The notes below the pieces were generated by a model. That model made no database searches and was not told the DNA's origin. It saw nothing but the letters and a program-made list of their open reading frames with translations. Of a stretch of DNA of 64,000 nucleotides, positions 5,552-32,135 are shown piece by piece; the first letter of the stretch is position 1; each line of letters starts with the position of its first letter. The position numbers were made by a program, and so were the translations under genes. Source of the DNA: Phnomibacter ginsenosidimutans (lineage in GTDB: Bacteria > Bacteroidota > Bacteroidia > Chitinophagales > Chitinophagaceae); contig NZ_CP046566.1 of assembly GCF_009740285.1 (NCBI RefSeq), positions 1-64,000 on the forward strand, written 5' to 3'.

Positions 5552-5619
5552 GGATGGCTTTGTGCGGTGGGGGGGCCGCAGCTAACTTTGCTGCTCTTTT
5601 TTTCTCTTCTTTTAAAAGG

Positions 5620-10799: not shown

Positions 10800-11482
10800 T
10801 TAAACGGCAATAAACGCCACAGATGAATCGTCTGAAGCATTTGCGGTAATGCCATGCGTCTGTATGGAAATTAGCATGTTTTCCATAAAGGAAGCGGAAT
10901 AGATTTGCTGCAGAGGGAAACCATCAGAGCATAGGAGAAAAGAATCATCATGTGATAGTTGAGAGGTTTCATAGAAGTCTGCAATCGGATTTGAATCGTC
11001 ACCTTGAATAGATCTTGTAACAATATGGCGGTGGGATGCGATGGCTCCAGCATCCATAACTATACCTCGCTCCTGTAGCTCAGTTGTTAAGGAATGCGGC
11101 TTGGATTCGAATACGAGTTCGTTATTTCTGAAGTGAAGGATTTTGACATCACCGACCCAGAAGCAAATTGCCTTATTACCTTCTATGTAAACACCTCCAA
11201 GCGTAGCGCCTGATTTTTCACAGGTACGGGTTCGCATTTGGCGTAAGGCCAAATTGGCTTTGTTGATGCCAATTTGAATCAGGCTCGATCGACTTGCTTT
11301 TGCGAAGAGAGAAGTGCTAACATATTTTCCGCAACCAGTTTGGCAGCCACATCTCCTTTGGCATAGCCACCCATACCATCAGCAATCAGGCAAATGTATC
11401 TACCATCGCCCAGGTCTTGATATAGCAAGTAATCCTCATTAACAGGCTTTCGACCTTTTACTGTATGACTCCACACTTTCAT
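10800..11482 (-). CDS. PP2C-type Ser/Thr phosphatase, one frameshift
   Basis: The N-part, 11482-11279, reads MKVWSHTVKGRKPVNEDYLL and CLIADGMGGYAKGDVAAKL. NED and DGMGG are PP2C metal-binding motifs. The frame ends at VDRA, but a one-base shift gives SLIQIGINKANLALRQMRTR joined to the C-part (to 10800), which has SGATLGG, WVGDVKILHFRN and DSFLLCSDGF, the remaining PP2C motifs. Repaired length is about 228 residues, right for a single-domain PP2C. Its start overlaps the end of the HerA-like gene by four bases (ATGA), so it is the last gene of the defence operon. It probably reverses phosphorylation by the operon's kinase. Confidence 0.75.
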
Positions 11483-13500
11483 TTTTGACCAGTAGCTTGG
11501 ATTGTTCCTCCACCGTGTTTGGTAACACGGGGTCTGGTTGAAATTTTTACAGGCTTCACTGTTATTGCTTTGTCAGAAGCTTTGGACGACCAAAGGAAAC
11601 CTTCACCGGGCATTAATGCACTCATGTCAGCGGGTGTTAATGCACTAAGTTGGGTGACAGATTTCTGAATGTGCTTTAACCATTGCGGACTGTTGAATTT
11701 GTGCAACAGGACAATACTGCTCAGTTCAATTATCTCGTTAGGAAGGCTAGGTGGATCCTGGCTGGCAATCATTATACTTACTCCCTTGTGGCGCATTTCT
11801 CTGATAGCAGTTACTATGTTGCCTGTGAGGTCTTTGTTGTCCATGTATTTATGGGCCTCATCAAACACAATGAACTTATTGAAATGCACACCTTTCCAGT
11901 TTTTGACTCCAGAGAAAATATTGAGCATAATTACGAACAAGCCGAGAGCTTCGTCCTTCACAATAAATTCATCACGAAGGTCTACGATTATTAGTCGGCC
12001 AGGCTTCAATTGATCACGTAGATACACAGCATCATCTATGTACTCCCTGGCAAAGCTCAGCTTTTGTTTGGCCAATGCTTTCTGACTATTTGATAGGAGT
12101 TCCGAAATCTCTACACTGAGTCCAATATGATCCAGCGATAAGTTATTCCGTCGATCCTTCATGATGGCCTTCAACTGTTTGATATAGGTCGAATCATTGC
12201 CGATAGCTCCCAGCAAGAACATCCAGTCTTGCACATTCAGTTCTTTTGAATTGAAGGCAATAGGAAAAACGTCAATTGAAGGGTATTCCACCTTTCTTGC
12301 TTCTACTTTATCCTTTGGGGTAAGCAAAACCACATCTTCAATTCGACCTGGCTCTGCGCCAAATTCTTGCTTTAGCTTTCTTAATTCGGCATCCTTGTCA
12401 TTTGGGTAAATCATTGAAGTGAACTCTGGCTCATAATCCATGCTCTCGCTGTAATGAAATATGACACCTGCCAGTGGCGCTTCTATCTTGTTGACTTTGT
12501 TGAATGGTTTTAGAACCATTTCTGTCACTGTTCCAATAGTATAACTTTTGCCGCCACCCTGCACGCCAAAAAGACTTATGGTGTTGGTTTCGCTAAGATC
12601 CACAGCTATTGATTTTCCTGTCACGGTTTTTCCGAGGATTCCGAACTGGGTACTATCTCCATTTTTACCAATCATTACATCATATTCCGGGGCCTCATGT
12701 TCAATGATATTCGCAGGTTCAATAGGCGGCGTATCAATTGGCGTATTTGAAGTATCAATAATACCACCTTCATCGTCTTCATCATTTCGGCGACTGTTTT
12801 TATCTGCCAACGATGAAATTGGATTTTCGTTGGCAGAAGTGTCTGGGACTTCGTGGTCTGCGCTTTGTGTTGTGTCCTCAGACTGAGTGTTTTCTGATGC
12901 TAAATGTTCACTCGTCTTTTTGCTTTCGATTTTGAATTGCTGAATAAACGCTCTGAGCTTCTGGTTAATACCAACTGCTTCGCTCAGTTCGTCGTCCAGT
13001 ACTTTCTCCTCCAGGCGCCTTGTATTGAGGTCAGAATCAGGATCAAGAATATCCTTGATCACACGTTCACCAAAGGTGAAGAATGTACAATCTGCATCTA
13101 TTGACTCCTTCAGGTGCCTTTTAGGGAAACCGAGTTCAAAGATGAGTCCTAGCTGCTGAAACTTAAATGAGAAGCCCTCATCTAAATTCTGTAAGAAGTC
13201 ATTATATGCGCCATAAGCTTTGTCTGACAAGTACTCGTACCTCGATGCCCGATCTAAGTAGAATGAGAGTAGTGACTTAAGTTCCTTATTTTTTATTTCC
13301 CGGTCAAGGCGATCGAATGAAAGATGATATTCAGGATCGTAGTGAGACCTAATAGCTTCAATTGTATTCAGAATCTGTTGCCTCATCTTTAGCTTGAGGT
13401 CGGCTCTTTCAGCCTCTGTCAGCGCTTTGCGACATTTTACTTCAATTACAGTAACAGAGATTTGCCGTTTTTCGCAATCAATAGAAATGAGCAGATTATC
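11479..13500 (-). CDS. HerA/FtsK-like ATPase with PD-(D/E)xK-like motif, C-terminal part of a giant defence protein
   Basis: The first Met in frame is at 13386, but the frame is open further upstream. That extra part reads DNLLISID (from 13500), then VIEVKCRKAL, giving D-x18-E-x-K, a plausible PD-(D/E)xK nuclease site; a start at 13386 would miss it. Counting from 13386: a helical region (1-160), an acidic linker (160-230), Walker A GVQGGGKS (274-281), Walker B FIVFDEAH (505-512), a sensor-like IMIASQDP and a basic tail. HerA-type ATPases are hexameric DNA translocases often paired with nucleases. No start codon is needed if it is joined to the 13499-14950 frame, and the sequence continues smoothly across (FEDRRQKQ to ADNLL). 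Possible equivalents are MAD8 or DptH; this is inference. Confidence 0.75.
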   Translation of the reverse strand, partial: DNLLISIDCEKRQISVTVIEVKCRKALTEAERADLKLKMRQQILNTIEAIRSHYDPEYHLSFDRLDREIKNKELKSLLSFYLDRASRYEYLSDKAYGAYNDFLQNLDEGFSFKFQQLGLIFELGFPKRHLKESIDADCTFFTFGERVIKDILDPDSDLNTRRLEEKVLDDELSEAVGINQKLRAFIQQFKIESKKTSEHLASENTQSEDTTQSADHEVPDTSANENPISSLADKNSRRNDEDDEGGIIDTSNTPIDTPPIEPANIIEHEAPEYDVMIGKNGDSTQFGILGKTVTGKSIAVDLSETNTISLFGVQGGGKSYTIGTVTEMVLKPFNKVNKIEAPLAGVIFHYSESMDYEPEFTSMIYPNDKDAELRKLKQEFGAEPGRIEDVVLLTPKDKVEARKVEYPSIDVFPIAFNSKELNVQDWMFLLGAIGNDSTYIKQLKAIMKDRRNNLSLDHIGLSVEISELLSNSQKALAKQKLSFAREYIDDAVYLRDQLKPGRLIIVDLRDEFIVKDEALGLFVIMLNIFSGVKNWKGVHFNKFIVFDEAHKYMDNKDLTGNIVTAIREMRHKGVSIMIASQDPPSLPNEIIELSSIVLLHKFNSPQWLKHIQKSVTQLSALTPADMSALMPGEGFLWSSKASDKAITVKPVKISTRPRVTKHGGGTIQATGQK

Positions 13501-14950
13501 AGCCCTGCTTTTTGTTTCTGTCGGCGATCTTCAAACAAGTCCTGATGGAGATCGGTGGGATCAGAAAGCTCTCCTGCAATAGCCCTTTCTTTTCGAGCAC
13601 CCGTTTGGTAAATGCAGAGCCAATTACTTCGAACGCCTTATTCTTTGTTGAATTGAGTTGCAGGATAAGAGAACTGCTTACTGCCCTTAAATCTTCCAGC
13701 AATTGATGTATGGTACGACTATCAGACTCGTTGTCGATGTTAAGGCCAAATTCCTGAAAATGAGGACCCAGCAAAGCCAAAACTTCAGATGTTGGCCTCG
13801 TGGTTAAAAAGGAAGAAATGCCTGATACTTCATCACCAGGAATGTAATCTAACAAGAATGGAATTGAGTTATCTTTTGAAGGAAGATCAAACACTTCTGG
13901 CCCCAAGTTTCTATCATAAGTGATTACCCAATCAGAATGATTGTGCAGATGGGCCAGTAATACTTTATCCAACGCATTTAGTGTGATTTGAGTGGATGGT
14001 AAGGAATCTGTTGGTCTGGAAGCCAGGGTGCCGGCCGTGAATGACTGCAAGCAGTCAAAGAACAGCCCTGCTGCATTTGATAATTCATTTTTCCAGCTAG
14101 AAAGATTGGAGGCTAAAATATAACGATTCCATTTAGTCTCATCATTTGCAGTGGATACATTGAGTGCCGAATCTGTAATGAGGCCATTCAGAAAGAAGCA
14201 GCGTGATGGCAGATTGGGTTTGAAAAGTTCTACGCGAACTGGGAAAGGGCTTATGAAGAAGCTTATGTGGGAAGTGAAGAGATGAGGCTGGCGTATATAC
14301 TCTTCAATCATGTTTATTGAAAAGCGAAGCTTGGGGAAAAGGCGGTTGTCAGAGGGCTGTGCAAAGGCTTCTGCTTCATCGCGAATATTCGATTCCGGAT
14401 TAAGCAGGTTTTTCAATCCTTCGCCATGTTCAATGATTCTATCATGCCCTCTGAAAATGCGTACTTCATATTTGACATTTTCGAAATCAGGTTCAGATTC
14501 AAGTTCCACAAATGCATCTGCAAAGATGAATGCATCACCTGCATTAAATATGTTTAGAATCAATTTATCGGTGTAGGGGTGTTGTGCCCTATAATTCTTG
14601 ATTTGCCGGACAACCAACTTTAAGTTCACATCATTGTCTACAAAGTTTTCCCTGGTTACATTAAGGAGTAGCCGAAAGTACTGTGTCAATTGCCGGTCTA
14701 TCGAAGTGCTGTTTACTGAGGAATTGTCTATCGGAGAAGCCAGATAAATACCCCAGCTTTGCATTAATTCGCCTGTGTAGTGATAATTTTTGAGGCCGTT
14801 CGGCTCCACTATAACTAAAGGGTTATTTTCAGGATATAATTCTCCTTCAAAAAGTTCGCTCAATCCTTTGAACCAGGCCTTCTGATGTCCTGGAAATTCG
14901 AGCGTTTTTACTTCCCAATCGTTATATGATCGATAAGTTGTACAAACCAA
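13499..14950 (-). CDS. Middle part of the giant HerA-like defence protein
   Basis: 483 residues in frame, with no family motif that I recognise: mixed alpha/beta, with segments such as DWEVKTLEFPGHQKAWFKGL and VLLAHLHNHSDWVITYDRNL. Two observations say it is not a separate gene. At 14908-14950 the preceding frame (LRLSWFVQLIDHIT) runs directly into DWEVKTLEF after a one-base shift. At 13499 its end runs into the nuclease-like segment of the next frame. Repaired, 16929-11479 would be one protein of about 1,800 residues. If the splits were real, this fragment would lack its own start signal, since MVCTTYRSYN is an out-of-frame artefact of the overlap. Confidence 0.6.
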   Translation of the reverse strand: MVCTTYRSYNDWEVKTLEFPGHQKAWFKGLSELFEGELYPENNPLVIVEPNGLKNYHYTGELMQSWGIYLASPIDNSSVNSTSIDRQLTQYFRLLLNVTRENFVDNDVNLKLVVRQIKNYRAQHPYTDKLILNIFNAGDAFIFADAFVELESEPDFENVKYEVRIFRGHDRIIEHGEGLKNLLNPESNIRDEAEAFAQPSDNRLFPKLRFSINMIEEYIRQPHLFTSHISFFISPFPVRVELFKPNLPSRCFFLNGLITDSALNVSTANDETKWNRYILASNLSSWKNELSNAAGLFFDCLQSFTAGTLASRPTDSLPSTQITLNALDKVLLAHLHNHSDWVITYDRNLGPEVFDLPSKDNSIPFLLDYIPGDEVSGISSFLTTRPTSEVLALLGPHFQEFGLNIDNESDSRTIHQLLEDLRAVSSSLILQLNSTKNKAFEVIGSAFTKRVLEKKGLLQESFLIPPISIRTCLKIADRNKKQG

Positions 14951-16929
14951 CTTAACCTTAGTGGATGGATTGGTGATAATAGCAAGGCTTCAATCGGGGT
15001 GCCGTCTGGTAAGTTTGTCTTGAGCTTTATTAAGTCGCTGAATTGCAGTTCGGCAAGAAAGCGCTGTAACTCCTCTTTCTCTTCATTGGATATAAGCTTA
15101 TCTCCCAATTTGGACTTTAATTGGGCTACCCAAGAACTCCATGAAAGAATGTAGGCTTCAATCTGGTTTCTCAGGTAAATGAGATTGGTAGTTTCAACTA
15201 TTCCATTGCCTGCAATATTTGACTGAAGAATGCTTTTGAAAAGTTGCTGACGAAGTGAAACAATATCAGTATCTATAATACTGTTTAAGACACTGGAGCG
15301 AAATGATGCTGAGCGAAATGCAATTTCACTCGCATTCGGACTGAGCTCACAGACAACAGTACCGATTTCATTTGCGTTATTCAAGAATAGCCACTCCAAT
15401 TCGCGGAGCTTGGAAGGGATATTCACCTGATAATTGTGCCGAGTATTGTATGCAATATGGAAAGTGGCTAATTGCTTTGGTTTTGGACCGTCCTGCCATG
15501 TGTTAGAGTCTTCTGTCGGTACGGGTGATTGTAAGCGAATACCTTTTCTAAGGTCTTCAATCCTAAACTTGAAATAGGCTTCAGTTACATTATGAATCTT
15601 GTCCTTTCGAATATTATCCAGTAGTTCTTCACCTTCTTCTACCTGAAAATGGAAGTCATCCGAATCACAAGTCAGTTTAAAGTCAAAGCTTGATTTAAGC
15701 AAATCAGGATTTTCTGTTTTTTGACGCTCCCATTCCATTTGTATAGAAGCCTCTTTAAATTCATCATCTGCATTCAGGACATTACCATGCTCATCTTCTG
15801 CATAAACTTTGAAAAAATATGAACCTTCTTCAACAACATTAGGATGTAGCTCTACAGTTGCCTCTCTGTAAGACCGTCCTGAGGTTGTGTTTTTTATTTT
15901 CTTCAGTACAGTAACCTCCTCACCAGCACCACCGGTTACCCTCATCAGGATAATTCGAAAAGAACGCAGTTCTGAAATTTCCGATGGATTGGGCTGCGTG
16001 TTGAACTTAACCTTTACTTTGGACGCTCTCGTTGAATTAGCATGCAGCACTTTGGTGCCTTCCTCCAATTTGAAATCAGTGCTTGAAATTTCTGTAGTAA
16101 AAAGTTTTATACCCTTTGTGTCTAATTCAGGAATAGGCCAATTGCAAAAATTGAGCTCCGGATAATTCTCCAAGATCCTTTGGAATAATTGGCTTGCATT
16201 TCTAATGCCACTTTCAGCTTTTAGAAAGTTAACAATGTATGGCTGGATTGAATTGGGCTCGATGGGCATCTCAGAAATTCGGTCATAGATTGGCTTGTTA
16301 AAAGTTGCCATCAGACTCGAACAACGCATGTTGAAATTCAAACGTGCTTTCGTTTGTAATTCTACTGTAAATAGTTTGCTATCTGGAATTAAACCAAAGA
16401 AGTAGAGATTGTTGCCAATACTTTCTGAGGTAAATCCCTGCTTTTTAAGTTCCAGTAGGTATTTGATGGCATTACTTAAAGCACTTGCTTGCTTTTCAAA
16501 TGATTTTAGAATGAAAACAACATTTGAATACCATTCTACAGGCACCAGACTAAGCATTTTAATTTTCAAACGAGCCTCAATGTCATCTAACGATAGGTCT
16601 TTGAAAGTATTATTTCCATAGGAATCCTCGGCTGCAGTGCGGCTTGAAGCAGGAATAAGTATAAGTAAAGGTTTTTCTTCCTTATTGCGCAATTCAATCA
16701 GCTTACTGGCTGAAATATGGTTGCTACTTGATCGATCATCTGAAATGATAAAGCTGTCTATGCGAGGATATGTCTTTCTTACTTTTTCAAGAATGTAGTT
16801 TAACTCAGCTTCACCAAAACCTGTGATTTTCATGCAGTGGCCAGGCTTTGCATTCAACAGCTCCGCACTATTGAGTTCGAGTAGCAAATCAATTATCTCT
16901 TGGAAATATGGGGAAATGGAAGTGTGCAT
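14908..16929 (-). CDS. N-terminal part of the giant HerA-like defence protein
   Basis: Starts MHTSISPYFQEIIDLLLELN at 16929; a TTG directly before it is also in frame, right after the upstream stop at 16933. 673 residues in this frame. It contains an early alpha/beta region with LRNKEEKPLLILIPASS, and a beta-rich middle (about 300-420), KVKFNTQPNPSEISELRSFR to YFFKVYAEDEHGN, that looks like an immunoglobulin-type fold. It ends LLLSPIHPLRLSWFVQLIDH. No catalytic motif is visible. Stop/start contact with the 16933-18492 gene shows translational coupling. It probably serves recognition or assembly for the C-terminal nuclease/ATPase part. Confidence 0.6.
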   Translation of the reverse strand: MHTSISPYFQEIIDLLLELNSAELLNAKPGHCMKITGFGEAELNYILEKVRKTYPRIDSFIISDDRSSSNHISASKLIELRNKEEKPLLILIPASSRTAAEDSYGNNTFKDLSLDDIEARLKIKMLSLVPVEWYSNVVFILKSFEKQASALSNAIKYLLELKKQGFTSESIGNNLYFFGLIPDSKLFTVELQTKARLNFNMRCSSLMATFNKPIYDRISEMPIEPNSIQPYIVNFLKAESGIRNASQLFQRILENYPELNFCNWPIPELDTKGIKLFTTEISSTDFKLEEGTKVLHANSTRASKVKVKFNTQPNPSEISELRSFRIILMRVTGGAGEEVTVLKKIKNTTSGRSYREATVELHPNVVEEGSYFFKVYAEDEHGNVLNADDEFKEASIQMEWERQKTENPDLLKSSFDFKLTCDSDDFHFQVEEGEELLDNIRKDKIHNVTEAYFKFRIEDLRKGIRLQSPVPTEDSNTWQDGPKPKQLATFHIAYNTRHNYQVNIPSKLRELEWLFLNNANEIGTVVCELSPNASEIAFRSASFRSSVLNSIIDTDIVSLRQQLFKSILQSNIAGNGIVETTNLIYLRNQIEAYILSWSSWVAQLKSKLGDKLISNEEKEELQRFLAELQFSDLIKLKTNLPDGTPIEALLLSPIHPLRLSWFVQLIDHITIGK

Positions 16930-16932
16930 CAA

Positions 16933-18492
16933 TTAGGCATTTAAGATATAACGAGGTCTAACTTTCTGAAGGATGTATGCGTCGCTTAACTCTGTATAGA
17001 AGCCAATTTGTCGCAACTTTGATTTGAATGCTGTGAGATTTTCTCTAAAGGCCTGTTTAGTATAGACGTTGGAGTTGGCAAATCTGGAATCATCGTTGCC
17101 GTTAATAATGAGACCATACCTTTCGCGAAGCTCCTGAGTAAGTTCTTCTATCGATAGGCTTGTTGTATAATATTTGTTACCATCGTTTCTTAAAACAAGA
17201 ATTTGCACCAGCGCCTCCAATAAACGAGTACCCAGCACAAAGCGGCGTGGATGCTTCCTGCTTCTTCCTTGTGCAAGGATCCCTCTTTCTGTATTTTTCT
17301 GTGAAAGGGCATCAAGAAGTTGTACATGGTATGGATACAAATAGCCAGTTCTGGCTTTCATGATAGCTTCAATGTATTTGTCAAAGTGTTTGGTTTCATA
17401 TTTGCCAATCTCCTCTAACAAATTTCTGTCGTCATCATTCAGGTTTTGCACGATTGCGTCCCATAGCACATTGAAGTAAAGATCAAATTGGTCATCTCGT
17501 TTTGAAAGAATTTCTAAGGCCTTGGCTAAATGATCAGAATTAGTTTTGTTTAAGCTGAGACGCCTTAAGGCAGCATTTATTTGAAATGTTGCTTTAATGT
17601 AATCGTAAATGGAGTTGCTCATTATTTCTGCGTCGGCTGCAGCAAGAGATGCCACCTTACTATCCACGTTATCCGTCAAGTCCACTACAATTGACCACTG
17701 AGAGGTGACTTCGGTAGTGCCAGCTGTAATCATTTTTGGTAAAAGCTGAATAAGGTTTTGGAGATAGATTGAAAGGTGGAAAGATGTGATGGTCTTTAAA
17801 TAATCAATCATCACGTTGCGAGGGATAATTCGCTTATACACTAATAGTTTCCTAATGTCTTCACAGAAGAGCTTAGCTTGTTTTTCAAGAATTGGTTTAA
17901 TGTTATTCAAACCAGTACTGCTTGTTTTGAAGCCAGTGCTAATATTTTTAATTAATTGAAGAAGCCCTAAGCTATCCACATCGAGGGAGTCAAACGTGTT
18001 TATCTGTCCTGTAACCTTGTCCCAGCCTTCTGAAAGAAAAGATATGAGCTCATCTCTAATAGCAGGTTCAGCACCCAACATCAAAAAAACCTGATCTGCA
18101 TTGTTATAGTCACGGGTACTGGTGGCATTACGGAGTCGGTAAGATTCTAAATGAATTGGACGCAGAGAGGATATTTTTTCTTTGTCCGAGTTGCCCCTAT
18201 AAACCATGTTCACTAAGTTGCTTCTTATCCAGAGCTCTGTGCCTAATGGGTTATCTCTAAAGCCAGAAACTGCATCGCTCAATTCTAGCCTTCTGAATAT
18301 CTCTTTGATGGTTTCGACTTCAATTATTGTATTGTCGCCAGATCGGGCACGCTGTTTGGGACGTATTCCGTTATGGCGCAAAAGCATGAAGAGATTGACA
18401 AGCGTATTGTCAATGTTCACCTGCTTCGCATCGCCTGCAAAAATCAGTTCGTTGCGGAAAACGCTCTCTTCTTTATTAAGCTTGATAGGCAT
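16933..18492 (-). CDS. Defence operon protein of unknown function (MAD7/DptG-like position)
   Basis: 519 residues, intact, beginning MPIKLNKEESVFRNELIFAG and ending RPRYILNA. Almost entirely helical, with no catalytic motif that I can see. The C-terminal 120 residues (RFVLGTRLLEALVQILVLRN to the end) look like a winged-helix-type domain. In DptFGH modules a helical protein (DptG) sits between a P-loop ATPase and a HerA-like giant. In MADS a protein of unknown function (MAD7) sits between the kinase and the ATP-binding protein. The position here is the same in both comparisons. The start lies two bases after the stop of the ATPase gene. Probably a structural partner joining the kinase/ATPase to the HerA-like protein. 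Confidence 0.6.
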   Translation of the reverse strand: MPIKLNKEESVFRNELIFAGDAKQVNIDNTLVNLFMLLRHNGIRPKQRARSGDNTIIEVETIKEIFRRLELSDAVSGFRDNPLGTELWIRSNLVNMVYRGNSDKEKISSLRPIHLESYRLRNATSTRDYNNADQVFLMLGAEPAIRDELISFLSEGWDKVTGQINTFDSLDVDSLGLLQLIKNISTGFKTSSTGLNNIKPILEKQAKLFCEDIRKLLVYKRIIPRNVMIDYLKTITSFHLSIYLQNLIQLLPKMITAGTTEVTSQWSIVVDLTDNVDSKVASLAAADAEIMSNSIYDYIKATFQINAALRRLSLNKTNSDHLAKALEILSKRDDQFDLYFNVLWDAIVQNLNDDDRNLLEEIGKYETKHFDKYIEAIMKARTGYLYPYHVQLLDALSQKNTERGILAQGRSRKHPRRFVLGTRLLEALVQILVLRNDGNKYYTTSLSIEELTQELRERYGLIINGNDDSRFANSNVYTKQAFRENLTAFKSKLRQIGFYTELSDAYILQKVRPRYILNA

Positions 18493-18494
18493 GA

Positions 18495-20273
18495 TTACAG
18501 GTTCATTGGTTCAAGGTGAAGTTTGTGATTTGGTTGAACTGAAATCTTGAAGTACTCAATATTGTCTCTGGTGACTACCACCTCTTTGTAGCTCAAATTC
18601 TCCAACAGATTTTTGAAAATGATCAGTTCAATGAATTTGCCGCGGATATCATTTAAAGATGGACTGAAACCTTTTTGTATGAAATACAACATTTCATACA
18701 GGTCCAATGATATCGTGAGCTTGATGTGCTTTTGCGCTTTGTGTCTGAAGACCAGGCTATCCGGGAAGTACTCAAGGTACTTGGTTAGGTGATCAGTTTT
18801 ATTTACATACAGCTCGAATCGATCTAAAGCGAAAAGGCGGAATGATTTACTGATGGGATCTTCGATCTCTGTTGAGCCAAGGGTTAGATACTTACTATCG
18901 ATGGCAACGTTGTCGCAGCCTTCATTGAGTGAGATGGCACGTGAAATAGACCGTTTGGTTGGATCGTCTTTATCCCCGGTTTTCAACAGATCAACAAAGG
19001 TGAAAAGCGACTGATATGGAATACGTCTTAGGAAGGAAGGTATTTGGACATTGCCTAAATCTGTGTCTATTAGTTCTGCTCTTCCTTCGTAGTAATGATG
19101 TCGTATGAAGGCCTTATGAATGCGCTGTAGTCTTGAAATAGATTCTGACGTTTGCTCGTGGGCCGGACTAAGGTTTTTGTTTTGGTTAAATTGGTCGAGT
19201 AAATTCAACTCTCTTTCTGCAAACTCCAGGTAGTCTTTTGATTTGTGTTTACCAAAGAACAATTCTCTGTCGAGGTGAGGGATCGCTACACTGCCGATGT
19301 CGGTTTCTCTTACGAGCTTTATTAACCTGTCTTGATTTCCTCCATCTGCGGCAGCCGGATCAGAAATGTTGAAGTAGTAATGGTTCCAAATCGCCAGCGG
19401 ATCTTCGGTTTGCAGCGATGCATCAACGTCTTTACAGCTGTAATCACGTGTTAGCATGAAAGCTATAAAAGACCTCAAATCACGCATGGTGATGTGCAGT
19501 TCCCGTTTGAGACTTACTGCTCGGAGCAGCCACTCCATTCTTGCGGTGACTTCATCCCCGGAAGCAGGGTCATTAAACGACTCAACATTGTAGCGGATGA
19601 AGCAATGAGATTTAACAGGGCACTGTTGACATTTTAGCCACAATGACTTGTCTGTTAATGCTTTTACCTGTTTTCGGAAAAGACTAGGATTGTCTGCGTC
19701 TCCTGCCACTACGGAACGAAGATTCAGGTTGATAATCAATAAACCCTCTGGCAAGGGAGAGTGACCTTCCTGATAGAAATATTCTTCAATGGCATTGGCC
19801 ATGTTCTTAAAATGGACAGATGTACTTAAGAACTCGATAAGTCGTCCTTCGTTAATGGCAATCAGCCGGCCTTCATTAGCCTTGTTGTAGTTGGTTAAAC
19901 CAACAAATGGTGAAAAGAAAGCTTCAAGTACATCATTATTGAATTTGTCATTTTCGTCTTGTGATCCGTCGTAGTTGCTTTCAAAAGGAACAGCATTGAT
20001 CTCGAATCGGGCTCCGTTTTTATGGTGGAATCGGGAGAGGCTTTTAATAGAATTATCCTCTTCAATTCGCTTGATGAAAGCTGTTTTTCCATCGCCGGCA
20101 TTTCCTGTAATGATCACCAATTTGTACTGCTCCATCCAGTATGGCTGGGATAAGGTTGGTATCCAGTTTGGTTTTTGTGTAGGTAAGTCGGTCCAGCTCT
20201 TTGGTTTCGTGGCTGGCCCGTGTACCAGCATTACCATGCTTAGACTGGCTGTATAGCGAATTGAGATACTCAA
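18495..20273 (-). CDS. P-loop ATPase domain, C-terminal part of the NERD-kinase-ATPase protein (DptF-like)
   Basis: The true coding part starts near 20128, where the kinase frame shifts by one base into YKLVIITGNAGDGKTAF (Walker A GNAGDGKT). The stretch before that in this frame is an artefact of the overlap. Further features are GLLIINLNLRSVV and a short cysteine cluster, CQQCPVKSHC, preceded by LW, as I remember in DptF-type proteins. The remaining 350 residues are helical. It ends NHKLHLEPMNL at 18495. The ATPase probably powers or gates the restriction complex. With the kinase part repaired, the protein from the second kinase to here would be about 870 residues. Confidence 0.65.
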   Translation of the reverse strand: MSISIRYTASLSMVMLVHGPATKPKSWTDLPTQKPNWIPTLSQPYWMEQYKLVIITGNAGDGKTAFIKRIEEDNSIKSLSRFHHKNGARFEINAVPFESNYDGSQDENDKFNNDVLEAFFSPFVGLTNYNKANEGRLIAINEGRLIEFLSTSVHFKNMANAIEEYFYQEGHSPLPEGLLIINLNLRSVVAGDADNPSLFRKQVKALTDKSLWLKCQQCPVKSHCFIRYNVESFNDPASGDEVTARMEWLLRAVSLKRELHITMRDLRSFIAFMLTRDYSCKDVDASLQTEDPLAIWNHYYFNISDPAAADGGNQDRLIKLVRETDIGSVAIPHLDRELFFGKHKSKDYLEFAERELNLLDQFNQNKNLSPAHEQTSESISRLQRIHKAFIRHHYYEGRAELIDTDLGNVQIPSFLRRIPYQSLFTFVDLLKTGDKDDPTKRSISRAISLNEGCDNVAIDSKYLTLGSTEIEDPISKSFRLFALDRFELYVNKTDHLTKYLEYFPDSLVFRHKAQKHIKLTISLDLYEMLYFIQKGFSPSLNDIRGKFIELIIFKNLLENLSYKEVVVTRDNIEYFKISVQPNHKLHLEPMNL

Positions 20274-21120
20274 CTATATCTATGTCCGAAGTACGAATAG
20301 CTGGCGCTGCCACGGGTGCAGTATTCAAGGGTTGTAAAACGCCATCTTTACCAATTGCTTCCAGCGCATTCAACATTTCAGCCGCATCCTTAAACCGAAT
20401 ATTCGGTTTTGTTGAAATAGCCTTGTGAATGAAGGCTTCAAATGCTGGCGATACTGTATTTACCCATTTACTAAGTGGCTCAGGGTCCTTGCTGACTCTG
20501 GGAAAACGATCTGGCGCCCAAGGATACTGTTTGGCTATGAGTTCATAAAGTGTAATGCCGAGGGCAAACAAATCAGCAGATTTATCCCAATGCACTTTGG
20601 AATCTTCAATCAGGTCGGGCGCCAGGTAGGGGTTGGTACCTACGAAGTCTTTGTTATCTGCTACCAGTGAGGCTACATTGAAATCAATAAGTACAAACTT
20701 TTCCTGTTTATCCCACATGATGTTCTGTGGTTTTATATCCCGGTGCAGGATGGGGTTTTCCTGCTGTTGCATCTCCCGAAGGGCAGACAGGATATCATGC
20801 GCCACTTCGTATACTCTGGCAATGGGCAGTCTTGCATCTGTGCGGGTGTAAACACTGAGGTTTTCGCCCTCCAGGTATTCAGTAACTGTGTAGAACTGGC
20901 CACTGGGAACTGTTCCGTTCCAGATGAACTTTACAATATTCGGATGGTTGAGATCACGCAATGCGTTATACTCATCTGTAACGCTGGCACGATTAACGCT
21001 TTCGTGAAACAACTTCAAAGCATAGTCTTTTCCCTGCAGGGTGTGCCTTACTTTGAAAACCTCGGAATAGCCACCCTTGCCCAGTCGCTTGGTAAATGGT
21101 ATAGTCACCAACCCGATCAC
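20062..21120 (-). CDS. Active-looking Ser/Thr protein kinase domain of the defence operon
   Basis: Kinase signature complete: glycine loop KRLGKGGYSEVFKV, ATP-binding Lys in YALKLF, catalytic loop HRDIKPQN, IDFNVAS in place of DFG (Asp kept), GTNPYLAPDLIE in the APE position, and SADLFALGITLYELI. The open frame begins MIGLVTIPF, but the conserved kinase actually starts as GDYTI in the upstream frame and shifts by one base at TIPFTKRLG. The frame ends beyond the kinase at 20062, after another shift into the ATPase frame around 20128. This kinase probably phosphorylates operon partners on infection, with the PP2C at 10800-11482 as the opposing enzyme. Confidence 0.75.
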   Translation of the reverse strand: MIGLVTIPFTKRLGKGGYSEVFKVRHTLQGKDYALKLFHESVNRASVTDEYNALRDLNHPNIVKFIWNGTVPSGQFYTVTEYLEGENLSVYTRTDARLPIARVYEVAHDILSALREMQQQENPILHRDIKPQNIMWDKQEKFVLIDFNVASLVADNKDFVGTNPYLAPDLIEDSKVHWDKSADLFALGITLYELIAKQYPWAPDRFPRVSKDPEPLSKWVNTVSPAFEAFIHKAISTKPNIRFKDAAEMLNALEAIGKDGVLQPLNTAPVAAPAIRTSDIDIVEYLNSLYSQSKHGNAGTRASHETKELDRLTYTKTKLDTNLIPAILDGAVQIGDHYRKCRRWKNSFHQAN

Positions 21121-22081
21121 CTTCTTTCAATTCTTCAACAATGGTCGATGGAAGTGAGGACGGTTGCTTAGCTGTTTGGCCTGCTGGTTGAGAGTCGTTC
21201 TCTTTCAGTTTCTGATTGAGGAACGCTTCCAGCTCATCTACATTATCCCATCTGTCTTCCCGCTCAACCACGATTGTTTTATTGCAAAGCTCATCGAGCC
21301 ATTTGGGGAGATTGCCATTGATGGCAGAAGGGAGCAAATTGGGCGTTAGTTTGCCGCCCATCTTATCTAAAGCAAATGGGGAACGGACTGGTTCCTGCCC
21401 GGTGAACAACCAATAGATGAGAATACCTAAGGAATAAATATCTGATGACCGGGAGGCATCGCCCACGGTAAGCTCCAGCGGATGGTAGGCTGTGGCATTG
21501 GTTTCATTCAAGGTGGCCATTACCGTATAGCCTTGCTGGTTATGGTCGGTGAAGTAGGCCTTTCCAAAATTGCCAAGAAATGCATAGCCACCACTTACAT
21601 AAATGTTATCGGGGTTAATATCTCGGTGAAAGATGTTTTCCTTGTGGGCTTCTCGTAAGGCAGCAATGATGTTTTTGATGAAGCCAATTTTTTCATTGAA
21701 TGTGAAGGTGCGGCTGCGGGCTTCTGCTCTTAAGGAGTTCTCGTCCAGAAAGTCGGATATCTCGTAGAAGACATGGTTTTCTTCATCGATCTTAAACTCC
21801 ACATTTAAAATGAAGGGCTTGGTTTTGATCTTAGATAAAGCATGATATTGGTTGGTGATGATGTCCTGGCGCTTTTGGAGTTCTGGTAGGGAAAGGCCTG
21901 AAACTTGCAGTGCATATTCCTTTACCCGCTTGCGAATGGTGGAAGTGACGCCCTTGGGCTTGACCAGGTATTCTATAAAGTTTTGTTCCTGCTGCAGGAT
22001 ATCCAATATTTCATAGCCTTCCACCTCCCGTTTGTCTTCAGGCTTTTTCTTAGCATGGCTACCAATGATAAACTGTACCAA
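20993..22081 (-). CDS. Degenerate kinase domain (pseudokinase) of the NERD-kinase protein
   Basis: Follows the NERD gene in the same frame, separated only by a TAG at 22082-22084; the next codon, TTG, would be the start if translated alone. The kinase fold is recognisable from ISDFLDENSL, FHRDINPDNIYV (HRD and Asn kept), LGNFGKAYF and SSDIYSLGILIYWLFTG. The DFG Asp is replaced by Asn (NFG), no clear glycine loop is present, and so it is probably inactive or weakly active. The C-terminus (EELKEGDRVGDYTI) leads into the second kinase after a one-base shift. Domain order NERD - kinase resembles PglW of the Pgl/BREX type 2 system. Confidence 0.65.
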   Translation of the reverse strand: MVQFIIGSHAKKKPEDKREVEGYEILDILQQEQNFIEYLVKPKGVTSTIRKRVKEYALQVSGLSLPELQKRQDIITNQYHALSKIKTKPFILNVEFKIDEENHVFYEISDFLDENSLRAEARSRTFTFNEKIGFIKNIIAALREAHKENIFHRDINPDNIYVSGGYAFLGNFGKAYFTDHNQQGYTVMATLNETNATAYHPLELTVGDASRSSDIYSLGILIYWLFTGQEPVRSPFALDKMGGKLTPNLLPSAINGNLPKWLDELCNKTIVVEREDRWDNVDELEAFLNQKLKENDSQPAGQTAKQPSSLPSTIVEELKEGDRVGDYTIYQATGQGWLFRGFQSKAHPAGKRLCFEVVSRKR

Positions 22082-22609
22082 CTATTGTTGGATACTCTTG
22101 ATGGCATTAGCTGTTTGACCAACCGAAAGTGGGTCTGTGATATAATCAATGAGGGCTGGCTTCAACTCAAAGGAAAGCCTTGCCGCTTCGTCGAAAATAT
22201 CCGGTGCGTAACTATTGGGATAGGAAAGGGTTAGCAGGTTTTGAATCCACGCTTTTGACCAAGCTAGATTGTGCTCTTTGATCTTAGAAGCAAGGATTGC
22301 GGTTTTTATGCGACCCAGTTTGAGTGGGTTTTGTTTCTGCTTGTCGTTCACATACCAATAGGTATCACCACCTTCAATACGGCCACGCCAATCCTTGTTT
22401 TCAATATTATAAATGGCATGTGGTGCTATTACCACCAAATCATATTCCCAATACTGCGTTTTGTTATTCCTTGGATTAGTAGAAGCAATCTCCAGGTTGG
22501 GCAACAAGAAATAATCATCTGGAAGATGCACTTCCAGAAAATCAAGTAAACGCTTTTCTCCAGCGTTTACAACTGAATCGAAATAGGGCGGTGTGATTAT
22601 TCTTGCCAT
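22082..22609 (-). CDS. NERD (nuclease-related) domain protein, first part of the kinase polypeptide
   Basis: 175 residues. After MARIITPPYFDSVVNAGEKR comes EYDLVVIAPHAIYNIENKDW: Asp57, Glu70 and Lys72 form the D...ExK pattern of NERD domains, which share the PD-(D/E)xK nuclease fold. The gene starts inside the end of the S-subunit gene (13-base overlap) and stops with a TAG in frame with the following kinase. In PglW-like and MADS kinases the NERD domain is fused to the kinase, so the TAG may be a point error, a true split or a recoded codon. Activity as a nuclease is possible but not shown by sequence alone. Confidence 0.7.
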   Translation of the reverse strand: MARIITPPYFDSVVNAGEKRLLDFLEVHLPDDYFLLPNLEIASTNPRNNKTQYWEYDLVVIAPHAIYNIENKDWRGRIEGGDTYWYVNDKQKQNPLKLGRIKTAILASKIKEHNLAWSKAWIQNLLTLSYPNSYAPDIFDEAARLSFELKPALIDYITDPLSVGQTANAIKSIQQ

Positions 22610-24000
22610 GATTCAATTTCATTTTGAAGGATAGCAAAGGCTTTATTTTCCAACTTATTTGCTATCGTTAACTTATCATATGCAATCTTCATCATTTCGC
22701 CTATTTGAAGTTCTGAAGCAGGTTCAAGCCGAGGAACTGGCAACTCATTTAGAAGTGGAACAATATACCCGAGTAGATTTGTGCCATACACTGTATTTCT
22801 AAACAGACGAAACCAAAAAGGAGAGTTAAGTACAGCAAATAGATATCCAGAGTCAATTCTGTTGATATTTGGGATGAATCGCATTGCATGGCCCGCAATG
22901 ACTTTACCTTCAAGATATCCCCATACGAATTTCGCTCTGGAAAATATTTCGTTTTCACCCAAAGTGCCCTGTCCTGGTATTAGAATGGTACCTTTTGCAA
23001 CGGACTCTTCGGTGATATTCTTTATGTGCTTTGCTGAGATATATTTGCCTTTCGGATTGAAACTGAAGAGATCACCTTGTGATAATAGTTCAACTGATTT
23101 TTTTGATGTCGCTTCAATACGTTTGTACCTAGCACCATAATGTGGGTCGCACATTAAAACATCTTTTAGAGTATCGTATTTTCCAGTCTTTAAAAAACTT
23201 ATAATCTCTCCTTTCCTCGGACTAAAATTTCTGGCCCTAAAGGTGTGAAACAGGTTATTTGAAACCGATACTTTGAATGTATTCGCAATATTTCTTTCTA
23301 AAGGTTGAGACAGTTTGTTTAACAGAGACTTTGATAAAGAGAGTTCTTGGTGATAAAACTCAGTTGCCTCTCTTATTTTAAGATTTGCTTCATCTCTATT
23401 TTGCCATGCTTTGGTAGTCAGGTCGTGAATTACTTGTTGTTTATCGTCTTCAAAGCGAGGAATAGGAATTCCAGCTAACATTTCCTCCGTTACAAACGGT
23501 TGAGCATTACCGCTAATGTGTCGGCGTGAGAGATGAAATCCATATCTGCTAGCTAAGAATGAATATAAAAAGCCGGTCTTAACCTTTCCATTTGGGATTA
23601 TCCTTATCACGTTGTCTGAACCCAGACACCCGCTGATTTCCCTTGAAGCAAATGTGTATGAACCCACCGTATTTTGGCCAACACGACCAGTTAGAATCAT
23701 TCCTTCACTTAAAAAGCCTTTTTTTTCGTTCCAAAATTTAGCAGATGCATATTTACAGCCAACCAAAGGGGAGGAGGATAATATATCCGTATTTCCCAAG
23801 TACGGTATTCCGTGTTTCTCTCCGACATATATTCGTTTACTTCTGCCAGCACAAAAGATATCTGACGTCACTTCTTTTAGTGTATAATGATCTCTTAAAC
23901 GAAATTGCCTGTCATAAATAACACCTTGAGTTAAGTGAAAATCTGAATTAAGTCGTCCGCTTTCACAAATATATTTTGACTGTACCCTACCCGCTTTCAT
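22597..24000 (-). CDS. hsdS: Type I-like specificity subunit (HsdS)
   Basis: 467 residues with two target-recognition halves. TRD1 spans about 1-200 (with GIPYLGNTDIL, GMILTGRVGQNTVG and ending GIPIPRF), TRD2 about 235-440 (with GTLGENEIF, GTNLLGYIVP and ending ELPVPRLEP). Each is followed by a helical conserved region (QQVIHDLTTKAWQNRDEANL, then LQIGEMMKIAYDKLTIANKL). HsdS dimerises the methyltransferase and sets the bipartite recognition sequence. The region is AT-richer than hsdM, as expected for variable TRDs. Its start overlaps hsdM by four bases (ATGA). In MADS nomenclature the S subunit is MAD5. No hsdR follows. Confidence 0.85.
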   Translation of the reverse strand: MKAGRVQSKYICESGRLNSDFHLTQGVIYDRQFRLRDHYTLKEVTSDIFCAGRSKRIYVGEKHGIPYLGNTDILSSSPLVGCKYASAKFWNEKKGFLSEGMILTGRVGQNTVGSYTFASREISGCLGSDNVIRIIPNGKVKTGFLYSFLASRYGFHLSRRHISGNAQPFVTEEMLAGIPIPRFEDDKQQVIHDLTTKAWQNRDEANLKIREATEFYHQELSLSKSLLNKLSQPLERNIANTFKVSVSNNLFHTFRARNFSPRKGEIISFLKTGKYDTLKDVLMCDPHYGARYKRIEATSKKSVELLSQGDLFSFNPKGKYISAKHIKNITEESVAKGTILIPGQGTLGENEIFSRAKFVWGYLEGKVIAGHAMRFIPNINRIDSGYLFAVLNSPFWFRLFRNTVYGTNLLGYIVPLLNELPVPRLEPASELQIGEMMKIAYDKLTIANKLENKAFAILQNEIESWQE

Positions 24001-26030
24001 AAACTCTCTCCTTTTAAAAAATTGAAATAACTTTTGGTGATCGAGGGCGGATCATCATCTAGCCATTTTAGTTTTTCGCGCCTTTTTCTGACCTCTGATG
24101 TATTGTTTCTTTTGTGTACCACATATTGTGTTTCTGTATCAAAAAGAATTTCGGCACCATCTTCATCCCGCTGGTAGATTGGATTTCCTCTTCTGTCTTT
24201 GCCCAGCTTTTCAGCAATTGCCATAAATACTTCATAATCTTCCTCTCCATCGGCAGCCAGTTGCTTTTCCAATTCAGATTTTTTCTGTAAGAAAAGGAGG
24301 GAAGCCTGCACCCCCACTTGCGGGAGGAATGCTTCAACAGCAAGATCAACCGAAGCAAGTATTTTAAATCGTTCCAGAATCCACTCACGTACTGGTAGCG
24401 TATTTGGATTGCCAAGGATGCCATCGGGTAATACAATGCCCACACGACCTCCTTCTTTCAAAAGGTCGTAGCAGGCCTCAATAAACAACACTTCGGGGGC
24501 TGTGCTGTATTGTGAAAGTTGATACCGATTCGCAATTTCTGGTTCCACCTTTACTTTGGCGCCAAATGGTGGGTTGGTAAATATGAGGTCGAACTTGCCA
24601 CGGGCATCATCCAATAAGCCACCTTCATAATCTTCCAAAAAATCAAGGCTCTTTTCCAGGGCTTCTTTGATCTTGGATATCTCTTCCGGATGTTCCCAAT
24701 TGGGATAGGCCAAGGAGTTCACGTGAAAGATGTTGGCATGGCCATCACCTGCCATCACCATATTCATACGGGCAGCTTTCTTTAGGTCGGGGTCAAAGTC
24801 GAAGCCAAAAATGGAATGTTCTGCATATTGCTTCACCCGCTCGTTCACTTCATATGAGTTGAACTTTTCAGCCAACAAAGGACCGTCCAAATGCGGGAAC
24901 ATTTGTTTGGCGATTTTCTTCCGAACATGGTCGAGCACCATCACTAAAAAACCACCCGAGCCGCATGCCGGATCCAGCACCCGGTGGTGTTCTTCCGGAT
25001 CCATCATTTCTACCATTGCCCTAATGATGTTGCGGGGTGTAAAGAACTGTCCAGCTTCCTGCTTCAGCGTGTTGCTCACAATGGTTTCATAAGCCAGGCC
25101 CTTTACATCTACGGAAGCATCGAGAAAAGAATAGCGAGATAATTCGCCCGCTATGTAGGCAAGACCTTTATCTGTCAGGCCAATAGATTCGTTTCCTTCG
25201 AATACTTCGGAAAATATTTCGTCGGTTTTCAGTTCTTCAAAGAGGCCTTTAATGCGTTTGGCTACTTCTTTGCGGCCTTCATCGGTATTCTGTTCTTTGA
25301 TGCCTACCCAAAACTTCCGGCGGTAGCTTTCGCCTTTTTCCGCACAAATAAACCGGCGCTTCTCATCGTAGAGTTTACAGAAGATGAGATTCAGCAGCTG
25401 CCAGAAAGCATCTTTCTTTCTGCCTTCGTTTCCATAGATATAATCGTGGCAGCGTTTGAACACTTTGATCATGGAATCGTTGGCCGGTTTTCGGCTGTAT
25501 GAGCGGTCGGCACGGTCAAGGTCTTCCAGTGTTTCCCCCTCGCCTGGAAAATCAGATATATCTGTGAAGACATAATCAAAACCTACAGCATCCGATTCGC
25601 GGTGCAGAAAGTGATTCATGGAGCCATTGGTCCAGAGGCCAAATTCACAGTTGTCCAATGCCCCCATCGCATTTTCCAAAGTGGCTACTATACCTTTCTT
25701 CTTATCGTTCTCTTTGGTTTTGTCATCGAGCACAATACAGGCCCGGATAATATTTTCCTGATCGTGATCTGCCCCCTTGGTGAATACCACCAGGTCTACC
25801 TTCTGTTTTTTGGTTTTGTTGGTATCGGGGTCGGTATACTCAATTTTGAAATCACGCTCCATATCTGTCAGGTCAAATCCATACTCTTCGTTGAGCATAC
25901 GGATGACCGACTGCAGGTTTTCTTCCTGTGGTTTGGCTGTTTTGATTTCATTGGTGAGCAGACAAACGAGTTGCTTGTCATCCAGTACAATGTCTTCCGA
26001 TTGTTCAATGTCTAATGGCTCTGTACTCAT
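23997..26030 (-). CDS. hsdM: Adenine-specific DNA methyltransferase (HsdM) with N-terminal HsdR_N-like domain
   Basis: 677 residues. Motif I VLDPACGSGGF (351-361) binds AdoMet, and NPPF (486-489) is the catalytic motif IV of gamma-type N6-adenine methyltransferases. The helical HsdM N-domain lies at about 185-330. Residues 40-150 form an extra alpha/beta domain, KVDLVVFTKGADHDQENIIR then CIVLDDK, similar to the HsdR N-terminal PD-(D/E)xK-like domain, with Asp in place of the usual Glu. It methylates host DNA with the S subunit, marking self. Four-base overlaps on both sides place it in the operon. It corresponds to MAD2 in MADS, from memory. Gene intact, which stands out given the number of broken neighbours. 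Confidence 0.85.
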   Translation of the reverse strand: MSTEPLDIEQSEDIVLDDKQLVCLLTNEIKTAKPQEENLQSVIRMLNEEYGFDLTDMERDFKIEYTDPDTNKTKKQKVDLVVFTKGADHDQENIIRACIVLDDKTKENDKKKGIVATLENAMGALDNCEFGLWTNGSMNHFLHRESDAVGFDYVFTDISDFPGEGETLEDLDRADRSYSRKPANDSMIKVFKRCHDYIYGNEGRKKDAFWQLLNLIFCKLYDEKRRFICAEKGESYRRKFWVGIKEQNTDEGRKEVAKRIKGLFEELKTDEIFSEVFEGNESIGLTDKGLAYIAGELSRYSFLDASVDVKGLAYETIVSNTLKQEAGQFFTPRNIIRAMVEMMDPEEHHRVLDPACGSGGFLVMVLDHVRKKIAKQMFPHLDGPLLAEKFNSYEVNERVKQYAEHSIFGFDFDPDLKKAARMNMVMAGDGHANIFHVNSLAYPNWEHPEEISKIKEALEKSLDFLEDYEGGLLDDARGKFDLIFTNPPFGAKVKVEPEIANRYQLSQYSTAPEVLFIEACYDLLKEGGRVGIVLPDGILGNPNTLPVREWILERFKILASVDLAVEAFLPQVGVQASLLFLQKKSELEKQLAADGEEDYEVFMAIAEKLGKDRRGNPIYQRDEDGAEILFDTETQYVVHKRNNTSEVRKRREKLKWLDDDPPSITKSYFNFLKGESL

Positions 26031-26752
26031 ATGCTGTGCTTTTTTAGCAGTTGTTCTATTTCACTCCGCTTGTCACGACGGCCGGCAAAGCGGAGCAGTT
26101 TGGATGTATTTACGTTGTATCGTTTCAGTGCATTCCTGAAAATGGCATCAATGTCGTAGCCAAGTGGCTTGAAGTATTTATCGTAATACCAGTACACATT
26201 TACCAGCAACCCTTCTAATGCCAGCATGGAATAATCGCCTTGGCTAATGATAGGTGTTTCAGAAACCTGAGGGATGAGAATGATGGCTTCTTCGACAGGC
26301 AGCATGTATCGTGCAATGGTTTCTTTGTCGGGGTTGGCAAAAATCTTCTTACTGAATTGCTGGGCGTTGGCGAAGATTTGATCCAGCTCCGGACGATCAA
26401 CTTCTATGAAGAGCCAGTTAACCGTTGTTTCAATTGCAATTAAGTCATCCAGCATGGATGTATCCCAGACTGCAGGCGGATGATTGCATAAAGCCCTGAT
26501 TCGGTTGATTGTCCGCTTGGATTTAAGAGAGAGTTCCGCATTGTATTCCGGCTTGAATAGAAAGGAATACTGGCCACGCCCCACCCTTTGAATCAAATTT
26601 TCCTTGGTTAGCTGGCTTAGCCGCCACGAAAGTGTATTGTCCAATGTGCCGGGAAACTGCCGACGCAGCTCTGCCATTATCTCACTGGTGGAGATAGCAG
26701 AAAGGCCAGGCCAACGATTCTTAAGGTATGCGGCAAGCTCTTGAGTGTTCAT
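26027..26752 (-). CDS. Winged-helix AbiEi-like protein (DUF6577-like), first gene of the defence operon
   Basis: About 241 residues from MNTQELAAYLKNRWPGLSAI; longer starts at 26779 and 26797 are in frame. The N-terminal 85 residues look like an AbiEi-type winged helix: TSEIMAELRRQFPGTL, then NTLSWRLSQLTKENLIQRVG, then RGQYSF. The rest (LLIAIETTVNWLFIEVDRPE and following) resembles the DUF6577 family. It may be a transcriptional regulator of the operon, in the position of the HTH protein MAD1 of MADS, or a toxin-antitoxin-like sensor. I prefer the shorter start because a promoter-like sequence lies just upstream. Its stop overlaps the hsdM start (ATGA). Confidence 0.7.
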   Translation of the reverse strand: MNTQELAAYLKNRWPGLSAISTSEIMAELRRQFPGTLDNTLSWRLSQLTKENLIQRVGRGQYSFLFKPEYNAELSLKSKRTINRIRALCNHPPAVWDTSMLDDLIAIETTVNWLFIEVDRPELDQIFANAQQFSKKIFANPDKETIARYMLPVEEAIILIPQVSETPIISQGDYSMLALEGLLVNVYWYYDKYFKPLGYDIDAIFRNALKRYNVNTSKLLRFAGRRDKRSEIEQLLKKHSI

Positions 26753-26766
26753 AAGCAGGTTGATAG

Positions 26767-26798
26767 TAAATGTATCCATGCGGGCATAATTGACCAAA
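26767..26798 (-). promoter_or_regulatory. Possible promoter of the defence operon
   Basis: On the minus strand TTTG (26798-26795) lies 20 bases before TACATTTA (26774-26767), close to the Bacteroidota pattern TTTG/TAnnTTTG. ATG 26752 is 15 bases downstream. One mismatch in the -7 box, so weak. Confidence 0.25.
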
Positions 26799-29433: not shown

Positions 29434-29508
29434 GCTTTTATCGCTTTTACACGACAAAGCTTTTGCTCAAATATGCCCTTGGGTGGGTGCTTTGGGGTAC
29501 CCGAAATC

Positions 29509-31989: not shown

Positions 31990-31990
31990 T

Positions 31991-32008
31991 CCGACACGGC
32001 TCCGACAC
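31991..32008. repeat. CCGACAC direct motifs inside the right end
   Basis: CCGACAC at 31991-31997 and 32002-32008, directly upstream of the integrase start. They share the motif with the left-end palindromes at 3301-3338. Candidate arm-type binding sites or autoregulatory operator. Confidence 0.45.
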
Positions 32009-32135
32009 AAATTTAATTAAATTACCCGTAATATCCATAAGAAAAAAGTAGTATTTTATGAAATAATAAATTGACAAACAATTACTTACGTTATTTTTTG
32101 TAATAATTGTTTATTGCTGTTTCGGGCTGTTTTTA

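Follow-up and report, generated by a model that had tools for sequence, protein, structure and literature searches.

The window analyzed here is the 64,000-nucleotide stretch at positions 1 to 64,000 of contig NZ_CP046566.1 of Phnomibacter ginsenosidimutans (GCF_009740285.1). It carries a single tight operon on the minus strand (10800-26797) which, judging by its predicted proteins, is almost certainly MADS, a known methylation-marking anti-phage system, in a Bacteroidota form with a phosphatase. MADS is the methylation-associated defense system that was reportedly described by Maestri and colleagues in 2024. The explanation that best fits all the evidence is that this phosphatase-bearing Bacteroidota MADS lies on a tRNA-Asn genomic island and restricts DNA in the manner of DndFGH complexes, with its PP2C restraining the kinase; we put the probability of this explanation at roughly 0.6. 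The genes of the operon are given below in 5' to 3' order (ORF, open reading frame).

26027-26797, minus strand: winged-helix regulator, DUF6577/AbiEi-like, in the MAD1 position (Pfam DUF6577, 1.5e-42; PADLOC AbiEi, 5.8e-48)
23997-26030, minus strand: MAD2, predicted N6-adenine DNA methyltransferase, one intact ORF (NCBIfam NF047738, 827.4 bits, cut-off 720)
22597-24000, minus strand: MAD5, predicted specificity (S) subunit, one intact ORF (NCBIfam NF047740, 415.9 bits, cut-off 400)
18495-22609, minus strand: MAD6, with predicted NERD nuclease, pseudokinase, Ser/Thr kinase, and DndF/SspF-type P-loop; broken (PADLOC, Pfam, NCBIfam; one ORF in the Sediminibacterium C3 locus L002 and in relatives)
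16933-18492, minus strand: MAD7, DndG/SspG-like, one intact ORF (NCBIfam NF047733, 619.9 bits, cut-off 410; PADLOC mad7, 6.7e-48)
11479-16932, minus strand: MAD8, DndH/SspH-like, with a C-terminal HerA ATPase; broken (NCBIfam NF047742; PADLOC mad8)
10800-11482, minus strand: PP2C protein phosphatase, start overlapping the MAD8 stop; broken (PADLOC, Pfam, NCBIfam; neighbor of MAD8 in relatives)

Profile searches bore out the same-strand order that the original prediction had drawn from the letters alone, namely a winged-helix (wHTH) protein, methyltransferase, S subunit, NERD-kinase-kinase-P-loop protein, helical protein, giant HerA protein, and PP2C. The overlaps of 4-13 bases that it described were also found, with 4, 4, and 13 bases shared at the first three junctions and the start codon of PP2C overlapping the stop of MAD8, but its picture of one protein per gene did not hold for the kinase, the giant, and the PP2C, each of which is split into several frames here. 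The GC content of the operon was 0.42 vs 0.48 for the core genome.

The assignment to MADS was based on NCBIfam, a set of curated equivalog models, and in a positive control all eight genes (MAD1-MAD8) of a Piscinibacter plasmid locus were recognized (8/8). On the window, the models for MAD2, MAD5, MAD7, and the N-terminal piece of MAD8 (14908-16932; NF047742, 205.3 bits, cut-off 175) scored over their cut-offs, and the last piece of MAD8 (11479-13386) matched PADLOC mad8 at 3.9e-35. MAD6 was the best model for the three N-terminal pieces of the kinase gene (NERD, kinase 1, and kinase 2), with scores of 193, 339, and 200 bits; each falls under the cut-off of 460 because the gene is split. The fourth piece, with the P-loop, had no NCBIfam match and matched SspF in PADLOC. 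Two intact relatives passed the MAD6 model (L005 with 806.6 bits and L002 with 760.7 bits), and one of them, when scanned, also passed MAD7 and MAD8. The original prediction, in calling MADS the nearest known system, was therefore right but understated, since the curated models identify MADS outright. A gene-order comparison, which it had proposed together with profile searches against MADS, BREX, and Pgl models, pointed the same way: MAD2, the S subunit, and the kinase were adjacent in 20/20 other related genomes, with MAD2 directly next to MAD5 in every one, a gene order beyond chance.

The profile searches also bore on two other system types. A BREX/Pgl type 2 system is hardly credible: the PglW profile does match the NERD-kinase part, but at 36-246 bits (maximum 245.5) vs a cut-off of 990, the PglX models reached 28-34 bits vs 500-900, and neither PglY nor PglZ was among the matches listed for the operon genes. 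This candidate was rejected on the cut-offs and the missing genes. Type I restriction-modification was rejected as well. As the original prediction had noted, HsdR is missing; no HsdR gene was among the matches listed for the operon in the Pfam and PADLOC searches, and what was found was an HSDR_N_2 domain match at the N-terminus of the MAD2 methyltransferase (32.8 bits, cut-off 25).

The distinctive part of the operon, as judged from gene content, is the phosphatase and not the absence of MAD3 and MAD4. In the window the PP2C fragment fell just under the Pfam cut-off (19.3 vs 20.3), while an intact relative passed PP2C_2 (51.7 vs a cut-off of 24), so that the added phosphatase seen by the original prediction was confirmed. 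To place it, 67 loci were retrieved with the window's own MAD8 C-terminus; they are therefore near relatives, and some are almost identical. PP2C follows MAD8 in 61 of the 67 loci and in 58 of the 59 where MAD8 is full-length. Five of the six loci without PP2C (L055, L058, L059, L061, and L063) have short HerA ORFs, two of them cut by contig ends, and the sixth, L064, is from Bacillus. In L058 (2377-4449) and L059 (975-3095) these are proteins of ~700 codons that match the HerA part of MAD8 and are far shorter than it, with no gene of MAD7 or MAD6 size in the listed neighborhood; a mini-MAD8 is possible. The intact PP2C is one ORF of 220-244 codons, and Asn15, Asp17, Asp35, Asp188, and Asp226 were kept in 60/60 proteins. 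PP2C and MAD8 overlap in 50 of the 56 listed loci, and five further PP2C genes begin 34-114 bases before the MAD8 end. PP2C is also present on two Bacteroidaceae plasmids.

The pairwise identity of PP2C followed that of MAD8 (r 0.91) and of MAD6 (r 0.89) over 56 loci, which are related and non-independent; none of 2000 permutations reached either r. Mean identity was 0.40 for PP2C, 0.62 for MAD6, and 0.60 for MAD8, and PP2C thus diverges faster. A PP2C that merely hitchhikes as a regulator of unrelated signaling, with no role in MADS, would account for the several MADS loci beyond the main Bacteroidota group where it was not found, but the overlap with MAD8, the near-constant presence beside full-length MAD8, and the correlation with MAD8 identity make this very unlikely. 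In our literature search 'methylation-associated defense' and 'phosphatase' were not found together, and neither were 'DndH', 'protein phosphatase', 'kinase', and 'defense'; most subscription papers, the MADS paper included, lay outside both searches, and the combination may be in print elsewhere. Passages of PMC11842806, PMC12322248, and PMC11980395 mention MADS in passing.

Compared with the Piscinibacter reference MADS, the window operon has the same order of MAD2, MAD5, MAD6, MAD7, and MAD8, but it has no MAD3 or MAD4, carries a DUF6577/AbiEi-like gene in the MAD1 position, and has PP2C after MAD8. The lack of MAD3 and MAD4 was correctly predicted: Piscinibacter MAD3 and MAD4 searched by tblastn against 107 sequences, the window included, matched the source locus only, and the mad4 profile matched 0/7 genomes. 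The further suggestion of a new subtype stood in part. Two E. coli loci annotated as MADS (L146 and L147, MAD1-MAD2-MAD2-MAD5-MAD6-MAD7-MAD8) also lack MAD3/MAD4, and therefore this loss does not by itself define a subtype, whereas the phosphatase is distinctive. The E. coli loci further resemble the window in having the MAD5-6-7-8 block next to a tRNA and an integrase, and differ from it in having two MAD2 genes in tandem and a MAD1, with PP2C not found. Replacement of MAD3/MAD4 by PP2C was considered and rejected, as both MAD3/MAD4 and PP2C are missing from the E. coli and Bacillus loci; the Hymenobacter locus, too, has MAD2 directly beside the S subunit, and PP2C was not found there.

The operon leader had no NCBIfam match, that is, no MAD1 was found in the operon with these models. 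One gene of the window did pass the MAD1 model, by 1.3 bits, and lies 2.3 kb upstream of the operon's first gene:

29068-29457, minus strand: excisionase-type HTH_17 protein (Pfam HTH_17; NF047737, the 49-residue MAD1 model, 81.3 bits, cut-off 80)

The MAD1 position was variable in 20 related loci. In 10 it held a gene whose product matched the window's DUF6577 protein by BLAST, in two AbiEi_2 alone, and in two another gene. In the remaining six (L102, L105, L111, L113, L115, and L116) an AbiEii-type gene, assigned by Pfam in all six, stood directly before MAD2 with a larger gene upstream of it, which was AbiEi_2 in the four loci checked; other loci have a lone AbiEi/DUF6577 regulator there. 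The S subunit was 24-47% identical to the S genes of the 20 relatives, and MAD2 64-93% alike.

Residues of the putative catalytic sites were then compared in intact relatives, counted per locus with L005 counted once. All 58 intact MAD6 proteins kept the NERD signature Glu-Tyr-Asp...Glu-x-Lys, the P-loop Lys, and the lysine, HRD Asp, and DFx Asp of kinase 2. In kinase 1, Asn replaces the DFG Asp in 58/58 proteins and the catalytic-loop Lys is likewise absent from all (Asn in 54, Ser in three, Cys in one). Because both residues are replaced throughout, the first kinase domain is, by its sequence, a conserved pseudokinase; the two kinase domains of the original prediction are both present, but one of them is predicted to be inactive. 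In MAD8, the putative REase residues Asp1148, Glu1167, and Lys1169 (L005 numbering) and the HerA P-loop lysine were each kept in 59/59 proteins. When the REase segment was modeled with AlphaFold (mean pLDDT 75.3), the conserved residues came to lie on or beside adjacent strands between helices. The MAD6, HerA, and PP2C pieces of the window bear the checked active-site residues wherever the pieces cover them. Searches of solved structures returned nothing for MAD7 and, for MAD8, TdpA in the HerA part only (E 0.003).

These domains recall other defense complexes. The Dpt- and Pgl-like parts noted in the original prediction were recovered as profile matches: the MAD6 C-terminus to SspF, MAD7 to SspG, MAD8 to SspH and HerA, and the NERD-kinase part to PglW. 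DndF has been described with fusions of its core to NERD, an inactive kinase, and an active kinase, and DndH with DNA-binding domains, an inactive methylase, a REase, and a HerA/FtsK ATPase, in the sections of PMC10853773 that concern them; the word 'phosphatase' is absent from the main text of that paper. PglW has the same NERD-pseudokinase-kinase order, according to the relevant part of PMC12839542. From the SspF, SspG, and SspH matches and these published architectures, MADS therefore probably works like a DndFGH-type restriction complex guided by a methyltransferase and S subunit. It differs from DndFGH/DptFGH in that the module is paired with an adenine methyltransferase and S subunit. 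The KKP system, as outlined in PMC11341870, combines two kinases with a PP2C that serves as the antitoxin, and the likeness lies in two kinase domains and a PP2C in one defense locus. In MADS relatives, in contrast, both kinase domains belong to one protein with a nuclease and a P-loop, and the first is a predicted pseudokinase. Membership in KKP was rejected, since we found one fused protein in relatives and not separate PfkA and PfkB beside PP2C.

A mechanism can be proposed on this basis. From what is known of the families, MAD2 with MAD5 would methylate adenine in a sequence set by MAD5 and thereby mark host DNA. MAD6, MAD7, and MAD8 would form a DndFGH-type complex in which MAD7 and the N-terminal part of MAD8 may bind DNA and the HerA motor of MAD8 may move it. 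DNA without the mark would be cut by the REase site of MAD8, and the NERD site of MAD6 would serve as a second nuclease. The active kinase 2 of MAD6, paired with the fixed pseudokinase, could arm the system by phosphorylating a host protein or one of the subunits of the complex. PP2C would strip the arming phosphate and keep the system off in uninfected cells, a step suggested by analogy with KKP only. That PP2C restrains the MAD6 kinase is offered tentatively, at somewhat less than an even chance.

Another possible explanation is that PP2C is a phage-sensing antitoxin: it would neutralize a toxic MAD6 kinase, and a phage protein blocking PP2C would free an abortive defense. This is how KKP behaves with its two kinases and PP2C in the portion of PMC11341870 that treats it, and the co-inheritance of pseudokinase, kinase, and phosphatase and the faster divergence of PP2C are consistent with it. 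MADS without PP2C, such as L064, keeps the same kinase motifs, and therefore the kinase is not toxic everywhere in the absence of PP2C; we regard this explanation as unlikely. A related and improbable extension is a phosphorylation fuse. Here the MAD6 kinase would be toxic but continually reset by PP2C, until binding of a phage protein to PP2C set off both this kinase and the MAD6-7-8 nuclease. If true, the system would sense phage attack on its own off-switch besides missing methylation. The fixed position of PP2C beside MAD8 makes the role of the MADS kinase testable, and one common kinase part connects DndFGH-type complexes, PglW, and the KKP module.

Several results weigh against the favored explanation, a Bacteroidota MADS whose phosphatase restrains the kinase. 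The sequence retrieved around five other MADS loci (Piscinibacter, Hymenobacter, Bacillus, and two from E. coli) yielded no PP2C; MADS in general therefore does not require the phosphatase. In an even Bacteroidota sample, MAD2 matched at E <= 1e-100 in 5/395 genomes including the window's own, and only the window's own MAD2 exceeded 720 bits, the other four sampled genomes reaching 440-671 bits. With the REase segment of MAD8, Foldseek returned no match at E <= 0.001 (the best was McrBC, E 0.046, TM 0.22), and the predicted nuclease therefore rests on motif conservation and the published DndH analysis. Lastly, intact MAD6, MAD8, and PP2C cannot be made from the window copy if its letters are right. 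As for distribution elsewhere, MAD7 matches in the phylum of the Bacillus genome came to 1/299 genomes, which was that Bacillus genome itself. No kinase or MAD7/8-like gene was listed near the methyltransferase in Tessaracoccus, Skermanella, Paenarthrobacter, and Streptomyces among the eight of 11 MAD2 plasmid matches examined, a set that includes one match without annotation (L132) and leaves H9-H11 outside.

The original prediction missed the breaks in MAD6, MAD8, and PP2C, which were located against the intact Sediminibacterium C3 locus (~92-96% protein identity over the MAD6-8 segments). Six frameshifts and one stop were counted. In MAD6, an in-frame TAG occupies 22082-22084 and the reading frame shifts near 21088 and 20130, MAD8 is frameshifted near 14928, 13556, and 13525, and a frameshift near 11286 splits PP2C; paired 2-base gaps at 21157/21150 cancel and were excluded. 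As a result, the window MAD6 gene is four ORFs (22082-22609, 20993-22081, 20062-21120, and 18495-20273) and MAD8 is three (14908-16932, 13499-14950, and 11479-13386). In relatives, each is one ORF, of 1370-1576 codons for MAD6 (13 loci listed) and 1790-1837 codons for MAD8. The wHTH gene, MAD2, MAD5, and MAD7 each read as a single ORF.

These lesions could mean true recent inactivation, with MAD6, MAD8, and PP2C lost and MAD2 and MAD5 methylating on as an orphan modification pair. Their confinement to three genes while the other four read through would fit, as would their density. From the core rate (four frameshifts in 40-44 kb), ~1.5-1.6 were expected in the operon and six were observed (Poisson P 0.004-0.006). 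Base runs were present at three of the four core splits, and the operon lesions are not at base runs. The integrase of the island is also split. On the other side, dN/dS of the measured broken segments relative to Sediminibacterium C3 was 0.027-0.114, which spans the values of the intact MAD2 (0.055) and MAD7 (0.057). The comparison covers the measurable segments, PP2C (synonymous sites saturated) and the S subunit being too diverged, and it shows purifying selection on those segments and no long decay. Because most of what a pairwise dN/dS captures predates the lesions, it is evidence only against long decay.

The surroundings of the lesions and the quality of the assembly were also considered. 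Four of the six frameshifts lie <=3 nt from a GATC vs 3.7% of positions (P 2.6e-5, uncorrected for the post hoc choice of motif), which decay does not predict. The same assembly splits 4/33 core genes relative to the same-genus genome G080; the 13 genes counted in the 20-kb test region of this tally exclude one whose match spanned 17 residues. GATC was at 0/4 core splits, and the 31 GATC sites in 37-61 kb split no gene, two points that favor inactivation; the motif is more frequent in the operon (57 in 16 kb) than in the core (31 in 24 kb). Weighing these results, we lean toward consensus error behind at least part of the lesions and consider true inactivation possible but doubtful. GATC is rare over the window and the G000 samples L073-L082 (1.35 per kb). 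Together with the 4/33 split core genes, this rarity could reflect either an error-prone assembly or real avoidance of GATC. Compared with L097/L002, the wHTH protein is 74%, the S subunit ~27%, and the C-terminal part of PP2C ~55% identical, with 92-96% for MAD2 and MAD6-8; exchange of modules is a possible reason for the stronger divergence of the first three.

The operon sits on a tRNA-Asn genomic island (3206-32177), whose boundaries and integrase are:

3206-3247, plus strand: left attachment repeat, the 3' part of tRNA-Asn (3177-3251); 41/42 bases repeated at 32136-32177
32136-32177, plus strand: right attachment repeat of the island; synteny with G080 resumes at 32136
30729-32010, minus strand: tyrosine integrase, split in two frames, just inside the right end (Pfam)

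At the same site, G080 has ~67 kb, which has in common with the window only a stretch matching 3468-6570. With so little shared content, the island may therefore be composite. Near the operon, the island also carries a HipA_C kinase-like protein (8261-9148, minus strand; PADLOC candidate PDC-M03A). A weak RiboL-PSP-HEPN match under the Pfam cut-off was seen at 6791-7423 on the plus strand and could be an RNase-type defense or toxin gene. The gene at 9477-10106 on the minus strand encodes a Retropepsin-like aspartyl protease domain and, at the C-terminus, a SEC-C motif.

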